Virus record (IMG/VR): IMGVR_UViG_3300048444_000077
Location: 1-21,682 of that record
Reading direction: 5' to 3' (one strand)
DNA: 21,682 nucleotides
DNA from: a virus
Below, one piece after another: positions 16,572-19,357 of the stretch; the stretch's first letter is position 1; the number at the start of each line of letters is the position of its first letter. A program made the position numbers and the translations under genes. The notes below the pieces were generated by a model that was not told the origin of the DNA, searched no databases, and was given only the letters and a program-made list of their open reading frames with translations.

Positions 16572-16766
16572 TTATCCGTTTTGTTGATTCTGTCTTTCTA
16601 TTCTCTCGTTCTCTTCCTTAATGTGTTCCAATAGCATATTAACATATATTTCCCTTTCCCATGGCATCATCATCTCTAGTTCGCTTAAACTGTAATGATG
16701 ATGTTGCATCATTGCAAAATTTGTCTTATAATGGTTTACAAGACTATCATGAGAAAGGTTTAGGAT
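16572..16766 (-). CDS. C-terminal extension of gp26 made by -1 frameshift
   Basis: This frame is open for 64 codons from the slippery site to a TAA at 16572-16574. It begins ILNLSHDSLVNHYKTNF, continues MMQHHHYSLSELEMMMPWER and ends in a charged helix (HIKEENERIERQNQQNG). In-frame ATGs exist (first at 16712) but none has a Shine-Dalgarno sequence, so translation by frameshift from gp26 is the best explanation. The Y-S-L-S-E-L-E and P-W-E-R-E blocks look like the small second domain of tail-assembly chaperones. The fused product would have 301 residues (the frameshifted joint ORF spans 16572-17476). This is a prediction from the sequence. Confidence 0.65.
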   Translation of the reverse strand: MLNLSHDSLVNHYKTNFAMMQHHHYSLSELEMMMPWEREIYVNMLLEHIKEENERIERQNQQNG

Positions 16767-17476
16767 AAAAAATCTGATATCCCTTTTAACTCAATTTCAT
16801 TATCATGTTCACAGTTGATACACTTAAATTTTGCATCATGTGTCATCGATGGAAGATCACCAATATACTTGGTAACTCTTTCGAACTGTTCACTGGTCAT
16901 AGACTCAATGAATTCCATCAGTTCTTTTTTGGATACATCCTTCGCATCCATACGTTCTTCTTCAAGACCGTTTTTAACTATGACTCCAGCGATACTGGCT
17001 ACAACCATATCCAGTCCTAGTTTTACTTGATCACCAGATAGATCTGATTCCATAACCGACTTGTAAGAAGGGTACTTCATCTCTACCGTGATCTGATCGG
17101 TCAGTTCTACTTTCATGTCATCGTCTGTGACCTCAACTTCAATTGCAGATAGATCAATGTCTACCTCGTTTTGAGTTTCACATTCCTTACACTTGAGTAA
17201 GACTGTCGATTTCTCACCAGCAGACTTGGAACGTATCTGTGTAAACATATACTCGACATCGAATGTCGCCAGTTCTGCTACGTTTATTTTATCTTGAATA
17301 CATGCATCAATGGTCGCAACGATGGCTTTTAGTGCTTGATTCTGATCACCAGATTCAAACGCCATCATGAGAACCTTTTCTTCCTTAACAAGATACGGTC
17401 TGTAGCTGACTCGATCTCCTGTCGAAGGAACCGACATCTCATATATCGGTGCAGTATTTAACTTTGGTAATGCCAT
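16760..17476 (-). CDS. 26: gp26, baseplate hub assembly or tail chaperone
   Basis: The 238-residue protein fits the T4 bacteriophage base plate family (gp26 of T4 has 208). The N terminus LPKLNTAPIYEMSVPSTG and the following RPYLVKEEKVLMMAFES block (about residues 26-42) are characteristic. Two CxxC knuckles, Cys96/Cys99 and Cys219/Cys222, could form a zinc ribbon. In T4, gp26 acts in hub assembly and is not a main virion part. ATG 17476 has AGGAG at a spacing of 6. The stop is immediately preceded by the slippery site T TTT TTA, and the gene sits just upstream of the tape measure, which together suggest a chaperone made in two forms. Confidence 0.88.
   Translation of the reverse strand: MALPKLNTAPIYEMSVPSTGDRVSYRPYLVKEEKVLMMAFESGDQNQALKAIVATIDACIQDKINVAELATFDVEYMFTQIRSKSAGEKSTVLLKCKECETQNEVDIDLSAIEVEVTDDDMKVELTDQITVEMKYPSYKSVMESDLSGDQVKLGLDMVVASIAGVIVKNGLEEERMDAKDVSKKELMEFIESMTSEQFERVTKYIGDLPSMTHDAKFKCINCEHDNEIELKGISDFLS
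16766..16772 (-). promoter_or_regulatory. Predicted -1 programmed ribosomal frameshift site
   Basis: On the minus strand the codons GAT TTT TTA TCC TAA include the canonical slippery heptamer T TTT TTA, two codons before the gp26 stop. A -1 slip enters the 64-codon extension. No strong downstream stem is evident by eye. Confidence 0.65.
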
Positions 17477-18838: not shown

Positions 18839-19318
18839 CTATTTGTTACGTTTTTTGAAAGGTTTTAATGGTTTAGTTGATTTAGGCATCAACCCCATTG
18901 CAGTTAGTTCTTTCTCTGTCCAGATCTCAAATCCCCACCCCCGATCTTTTGCGTACTCTACCGCAGCTTTCCATTTGTTCTGGTTCTTGACATAGGTAAA
19001 TGATTCTGTTAACATACGTTTAGTACGTCTACCTTTCATCTTAGGTAATTGAGTTTCTTTGAATGGCTTGACTTCGATCAGTTTAGTTTGTCCTGTTTTG
19101 TAAACAATAACAAAATCCATGAAGTAACGATGATATTTCCTATCGACTTCATATAGATAAGGTATAACAATCTCTTCTGATCCCCATTCTTTGACATCCG
19201 AAGAGTTATCACAATACTTCATCACATACTTTTCCCACAGGGATCTGTATACGATGTTGGTCACGTCACCCAAATACTTATCTGGGTTTTTAGGTTTAAA
19301 TTTGCCTGAATATGCCAT
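18839..19318 (-). CDS. 4: gp4, head completion protein
   Basis: From ATG 19318 the protein has 159 residues, close to T4 gp4 (150). It begins MAYSGKFKPKNPDKYLGD and continues with IVYRSLWEKYVM, EWGSEEIVIPYLY, HRYFMDFVIVY and LIEVKPFKETQLP. These parallel the T4 blocks YRSNWEKF, WGSE-x-VIPY, RRYFMD and FIEIKPKKET in order. The acidic E and D plus the E-x-K motif (EVKP) are of nuclease-fold type. gp4 acts with gp50/gp65 in making filled heads ready for tail joining. The in-frame ATG at 19351 would add 11 residues before the conserved MAYSG and is rejected. AAGGA lies just before the chosen ATG. Confidence 0.9.
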   Translation of the reverse strand: MAYSGKFKPKNPDKYLGDVTNIVYRSLWEKYVMKYCDNSSDVKEWGSEEIVIPYLYEVDRKYHRYFMDFVIVYKTGQTKLIEVKPFKETQLPKMKGRRTKRMLTESFTYVKNQNKWKAAVEYAKDRGWGFEIWTEKELTAMGLMPKSTKPLKPFKKRNK

Positions 19319-19326
19319 AAAATCCT

Positions 19327-19334
19327 TATAAATA
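19327..19334 (+). promoter_or_regulatory. Late promoter TATAAATA for gp48
   Basis: An exact TATAAATA on the plus strand; the predicted start is 19340, giving a leader of about 35 bases to gp48. Confidence 0.8.
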
Positions 19335-19357
19335 GAATTAGTAGTTTTCAATAACCC

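Follow-up and report, generated by a model that had tools for sequence, protein, structure and literature searches.

A probable frameshifted tail-assembly chaperone, gp26-gp51, in an uncultivated T4-like phage

A 21,682-nucleotide stretch of viral DNA (IMG/VR record IMGVR_UViG_3300048444_000077, positions 1 to 21,682; hereafter the window) very probably encodes a frameshifted tail-assembly chaperone, with gp26 as its short form and a gp26-gp51 fusion as its long form. The window phage appears to be a marine T4-like virus of bacteria that possesses two forms of one tail-building helper protein. Its own record, a 21.7-kb fragment, holds a single gp26-type gene and no second paralogue.

The gp26 gene (short form, TAC-N type; 238 aa) occupies 17476-16760 on the minus strand, as do all features of the locus described below. 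It begins at ATG 17476, behind an AGGAG Shine-Dalgarno (SD) sequence (17487-17483) that pairs with the 3' end of 16S rRNA at -7.3 kcal/mol, and ends at a TAA (16762-16760). Profile searches matched the protein to PF12322 (T4_baseplate; 7.2e-55, residues 10-237) and to phrog_150 (5e-58, residues 1-237), i.e., to the T4 gp26/gp51 family over its whole length. The last codons read GAT TTT TTA TCC TAA and contain the slippery heptamer T TTT TTA (16772-16766), which is in frame with gp26 and leaves a single codon before the stop. After a -1 slip, the first codon read would be ATC (16766-16764), and the shifted frame then stays open for 64 codons until a TAA at 16574-16572, so that the predicted fusion comprises 237 + 64 = 301 aa. 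Six bases (16571-16566) separate this stop from the next ATG (16565). Within the -1 frame itself, the first ATG (16712) lies 20 codons past the slip and is preceded by weak pairing to the 16S 3' end (-1.5 kcal/mol versus -7.3 at the gp26 start). A first-pass annotation of the window had described the heptamer at the gp26 end, the 64-codon open frame, the 301-residue fusion, the six-base gap, and a small ORF devoid of its own SD sequence, and each of these was borne out. What it missed is the identity of the small ORF as gp51.

The -1 extension (16766-16572) was assigned to gp51 by a match to phrog_634 ("baseplate hub assembly catalyst"; 1.8e-27) over profile positions 57-119 of 121, the C-terminal half. 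It also matches the end of phrog_150 (8e-06; the last 50 columns, 232-281 of 282). Both pieces of the locus thus match phrog_150, and this profile is therefore long enough to hold both in one protein. In T4, gp26 (208 aa) and gp51 (249 aa) are encoded by divergent genes. T4 gp51 aligns to positions 13-280 of 282 of phrog_150 (2.6e-84) and to PF12322, and its end aligns to the frameshift extension. Hence, T4 gp51 corresponds to an in-frame long form and T4 gp26 to the short form. We conclude that the small ORF is most likely the C-terminal domain of gp51 and not a separate gene.

We collected related loci from IMG/VR searches and annotated phage records, and scanned 246 sequences (245 loci and the window) on the plus strand only. 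A gp26-type match was found in 237; the nine sequences that gave none were eight T4-type loci and the retrieved copy of the window's own record. The gp26 stop was present in 233, while four sequences ended before it. Four heptamer-less sequences were set aside as T4-type: the gp26 locus of phage Cronus and three loci fetched with T4 gp51, in which the gp26-type match is the long gene. The final set consisted of 229 sequences outside the T4-type phages (the window and 228 loci), many of them near-copies, and two encode a gp26 protein identical to that of the window. Distant queries for further loci gave no locus and one locus, respectively.

An in-phase T TTT TTN is found at the gp26 end in all 229 sequences. 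The heptamer lies within 24 nt of the stop in 228 (in the remaining locus it is nine codons before a later stop), and the stop follows it by zero or one codon in 225 of 229. Nineteen named-phage records outside the T4 type carry it, including XG4, SRB7757, 65.2, phiW-14, Bhz51, and Aeh1; the Aeromonas phages Aeh1, 65.2, and AS-szw, which also belong to the Straboviridae, retain it. Clustering at 60% protein identity yielded 87 clusters, and the heptamer is present in 87/87. Elsewhere in gp26, the 87 cluster representatives, of which the window is one, show an in-phase T TTT TTN at only 3 of 20,048 codon positions, and its presence at the gene end is therefore not due to chance. Codon usage alone predicts the heptamer with a mean probability of 0.395 per cluster, and the log10 of the product over the 87 clusters is -37, a value that overstates independence because the clusters share ancestry.

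Absence of the heptamer from relatives that keep the downstream ORF, which the first-pass annotation had named as evidence against frameshifting, was seen at none of the 228 loci outside the T4-type phages but does occur in five distant named phages. These are Salmonella phage S117, Erwinia phage phiEa2809, Vibrio phages YC and K475, and Pseudomonas phage Cygsa01, i.e., ackermannvirus-like phages plus Cygsa01. All five retain an open -1 extension with gp51-like sequence without any T TTT TTN, and the heptamer is for this reason not universal. S117 and phiEa2809 share the stretch IFEIDL ahead of any ATG in the -1 frame, and in YC, K475, and Cygsa01 the gp26 stop reads TAATG, which would permit a separate start. 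As a side observation, all five phages (S117, L254, 2290-2480; phiEa2809, L257, 2265-2440; and the other three, L253, L252, and L247) have a T-preceded Phe codon, shiftable to TTT, one codon before the gp26 stop.

Selection on the -1 frame was assessed in 208 of the 229 sequences, those with an anchorable motif, which reduced to 140 unique sequences. The test stretch was the 14 codons ahead of a conserved N-F motif, itself located before the first Met common to the sequences. Stops interrupt the two alternative frames in 86 and 138 sequences, respectively, but the -1 frame in none of the 140 unique ones. With 3,790 pairs pooled, the -1 frame gave a pS of 0.752 and a pN of 0.197, while pS was lower than pN in the other frames; no dN/dS is given because silent sites are saturated at this pS. 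Upstream of the first conserved Met, the -1 frame is under purifying selection. Contig ends cut the -1 frame in four loci, and in one further locus it is broken after 28 codons.

These data bear on the view, taken in GenBank annotation, that gp51 is a gene in its own right, with translation of the small ORF beginning at an ATG of its own or resuming once ribosomes have terminated at the gp26 stop. Among the annotated records that we inspected, some enter the gp51 domain as a separate 34-68 residue CDS ("hypothetical protein" or "assembly catalyst") and others omit it; where it is annotated it is never joined to gp26. Some lineages, among them six heptamer-bearing phages, read TGATG or TAATG where gp26 stops, which would also suit re-initiation. 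On the other hand, the conserved and selected stretch (LSHDSLVNHYKTNF in the window) lies ahead of the first ATG in most representatives, and 43 of 87 have no ATG, GTG, or TTG in the -1 frame between the preceding stop and codon 18. An ATG within the first 24 codons of the -1 frame is present in 72 of 87 representatives, but an SD-like site accompanies only 1 of these 72, versus 60 of 79 gp26 starts. A product begun at the inner ATG would be without the conserved front of the gp51 domain, and in T4 this domain is the end of an in-frame long protein. Taken together, we consider an independent gp51 gene improbable. Two features of the records themselves were noted in passing: the gp51 domain is a short separate CDS in 11 GenBank records (joined to gp26 in 0 of 11), and in Aeromonas phages AS-szw, 65.2, and Aeh1 the -1 extension is open and alike, with no gp51 feature annotated between gp26 and the next gene.

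The window also has an SD-like element, AAAGGG (16786-16781), a possible frameshift stimulator that lies 8 nt upstream of the heptamer and pairs with the 16S 3' end at -5.1 kcal/mol. Across the set, pairing peaks directly upstream of the heptamer and reaches -5 kcal/mol or stronger in 61 of 87 representatives, versus 5.9% of control positions. It also exceeds a synonymous null (mean of -5.78 versus -4.82, z of -6.0). The SD-like signal is partly due to a conserved Glu/Lys-Gly, and codon choice strengthens pairing further. A similar arrangement of an SD-like element upstream of a slippery site is known from E. coli dnaX. Downstream of the heptamer, a 9-pair hairpin of doubtful role is predicted at 16744-16723, 21 nt past the heptamer, and the usual frameshift-stimulating structures sit nearer. 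The downstream fold has a mean z of -1.27 (SD of 1.43; 85 of 87 representatives) versus -0.27 for a control stretch inside gp26. With its modest signal and unusual spacing, a downstream RNA structure is only suggestive as a stimulator.

The same signal could act on RNA polymerase instead of the ribosome, with slippage on the T run yielding a shifted message. The run is of 7 or 8 Ts in 62 of 229 sequences, which would favor polymerase slippage, but it is of exactly 6 Ts in the other 167, window included, and a 6-T run falls short of the lengths known for transcriptional slippage. Moreover, the run always holds the same codon phase, and the SD-like element upstream of it is a signal that acts on ribosomes. 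We regard polymerase slippage as very improbable.

Phages of the T4 type offer a natural contrast to ribosomal frameshifting at this locus. We examined 14 T4-type loci, in 7 of which gp26 was found by pattern and read, several being near-copies of T4. The Phe-Phe pair is encoded by TTC TTT after GAG or GAA in 6 of the 7 genes and is replaced by Phe-Ile in one. Among the genes read, T4-type gp26 therefore retains Phe-Phe in 6 of 7, with the slippery codons lost. That the heptamer is simply the commonest coding of a conserved Asp/Ser-Phe-Phe/Leu end of gp26, and has no role, is barely credible: Phe-Phe/Leu is indeed conserved and TTT outnumbers TTC elsewhere in gp26 (548 versus 262), but the heptamer is never broken in 87 clusters (hence the log10 product given above), and these six T4-type genes, from phages with a separate long gene, keep Phe-Phe without it.

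In a midpoint-rooted tree of 43 proteins, T4-type gp26 (4 proteins) and gp51 (9 proteins) split from the other 30 with branch support of 99/95; the gp26 rows of Enterobacter phage EC-F2 and phage 44RR are very long branches. The tree, together with the heptamer in Aeh1, 65.2, and AS-szw, fits one duplication inside the Straboviridae. In EC-F2 (Pseudotevenvirus; L250, 2001-3294), a long gp51 gene adjoins, on the same strand, a gene that could be a highly diverged gp26-like one, an arrangement that differs from T4, where the genes are divergent. T4 gp28, whose gene precedes that of the T4 tape measure, was considered as a third paralogue and rejected; its weak PHROG match was lost in profile comparison (E of 0.28). 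We tentatively suggest, at somewhat less than even odds, that gp26-gp51 is an SD-stimulated frameshift module and represents the ancestral state of T4-like tail chaperones. A single loss would have occurred when a forebear of the T4 group duplicated the gene, which left one short copy and one in-frame long copy. In ackermannviruses and Cygsa01, a different signal without T TTT TTN, for recoding or for re-initiation, would have taken its place and would keep the -1 extension expressed.

Structural comparison points in the same direction as the two-form architecture, at moderate strength. The AlphaFold model of the window gp26 has a pLDDT of 94.6. With VIA-align, the best match of its first 86 residues was the HK97 chaperone 2ob9_A (Z of 7.0, rmsd of 4.0 over 85 residues), although a Z below 8 may be chance; the runners-up were 3fgx (Z of 6.9) and a structure at Z of 3.8. 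Foldseek ranked 2ob9 fifth for the gp26 model (probability of 0.80, weak E of 0.34). The N-terminal domain of gp26 may therefore have an HK97-type chaperone-like fold, a prediction in which we place moderate confidence. A model of the long form, represented by a T4-type gp51 (pLDDT of 91.8), had no PDB fold match at E <= 0.001. At that threshold it matched 30 viral models, and those with names were either proteins of the baseplate or hub or uncharacterised; at E of 0.008 there was also a match to a protein of Citrobacter phage Moon that carries the name "tape measure chaperone." No phage protein was matched in a search of the PDB by sequence.

The ORF that starts 6 bases past the extension stop (16565-14286, minus strand; 759 aa) is a probable tape measure protein. 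It matches the tape measure family phrog_991 weakly (0.0014) and the putative tape measure protein of HTVC008M weakly as well (E of 0.001 for that single comparison), and it gave no match to T4 gp29. The position that the first-pass annotation had assigned to the gp26 locus, just upstream of the tape measure gene, therefore holds to within six bases, while the identity of the tape measure comes from weak matches. Such a position is that of G/GT-type chaperone genes. Adjacency to the tape measure gene is not universal among relatives: an extra ORF precedes the long downstream gene in HTVC008M, phiN3, Melnitz-3, P10VF, and LG08, a lysozyme or hydrolase gene lies downstream in ackermannvirus-like phages, and in phiW-14 the extension is followed by uvsW on the opposite strand. 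Elsewhere in the window, a head closure protein with a TnsA-like endonuclease domain (PF08722, 1.4e-19) is encoded at 18842-19351 on the minus strand, and a tRNA-Arg (anticodon ACG) lies near the left edge at 302-376 on the plus strand.

The analysis shows how the locus is built and conserved, that the -1 frame is under selection, that the locus is homologous to the separate short (gp26) and long (gp51) genes of T4, and that the modelled N-terminal domain resembles a chaperone at moderate strength; slipping by ribosomes, how often it would happen, a part for the upstream element in it, and action as a chaperone are inferred. Most ribosomes would stop at the gp26 stop and release the 238-residue short form. 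A fraction would pause at T TTT TTA, probably aided by pairing of AAAGGG to 16S rRNA, slip back by one base, and continue into the gp51 domain to make the 301-residue long form, the ratio of short to long being set by slip efficiency. If they work as lambda G and GT do, the two gp26 forms would coat the tape measure protein encoded by the following gene and draw in subunits of the tail tube. The heptamer and its upstream element would then form a compact cassette, to be set against phages that replace frameshifting by gene duplication. The long form of the chaperone is missing from the annotated records inspected.

The general claim is already known. Xu, Hendrix, and Duda reportedly described a conserved tail-gene frameshift in 2004. 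Tail-assembly chaperones (TACs) of T4-like phages (TAC-N/TAC-NC) were identified by Vladimirov, Gautam, and Davidson (Virology 2022;566:9-15), as relayed in passages of two citing papers (PMC10885494, PMC12846349). According to those passages, some T4-like phages have a short gene and a longer fusion gene in place of frameshifting (PMC10885494), and in T4-like phages the TAC-N genes are known to carry poly-T tracts as signals for -1 shifts (PMC12846349). Judging by the T4 match, the published T4-like TAC genes would be gp26 and gp51. Since the citing papers report the T4-like TAC frameshift, the window adds a member to a known group; the SD-like element and the codon-level loss of the heptamer in T4-type phages were measured in the present analysis. 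Among the matches listed in our literature search, judged by title and the start of the abstract, no open paper dealt with a gp26-gp51 frameshift in marine phages. In the passages concerned, a 2010 review (PMC3004832) counts both gp26 and gp51 of T4 among the chaperones of hub assembly, with gp51 absent from the final particle, and also cites genetic evidence for gp26 as a part of the T4 hub. The latter counts against the chaperone reading because a pure assembly chaperone would not be there.

The window can be compared with four systems. With the T4-like TACs of Vladimirov et al., as described in the citing papers, it has poly-T -1 signals in common, and it differs in that its phage is uncultivated and without annotation. 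T4 gp26 and gp51 are likewise homologous short and long proteins, but they are encoded by two divergent genes, with gp26 away from the tape measure gene and without the heptamer, and the long form is in frame. HK97 gp13 (2ob9) is the best fold match of the N-terminal domain of gp26, although its solved chain has 107 residues and gp26 has about 130 more. The link from gp26 to G/GT-type chaperones, drawn by the first-pass annotation, gains support from the two-form architecture, the in-frame long form of T4, the moderate fold match to HK97 gp13, and the gene position in the window. Lambda has a short form (gpG) and a -1 frameshifted long form (gpGT) encoded directly upstream of the tape measure gene, the arrangement predicted for the window; gp26 differs from gpG in being longer, in having two CxxC-type Cys pairs, and in its slippery heptamer, which in lambda is G GGA AAG.
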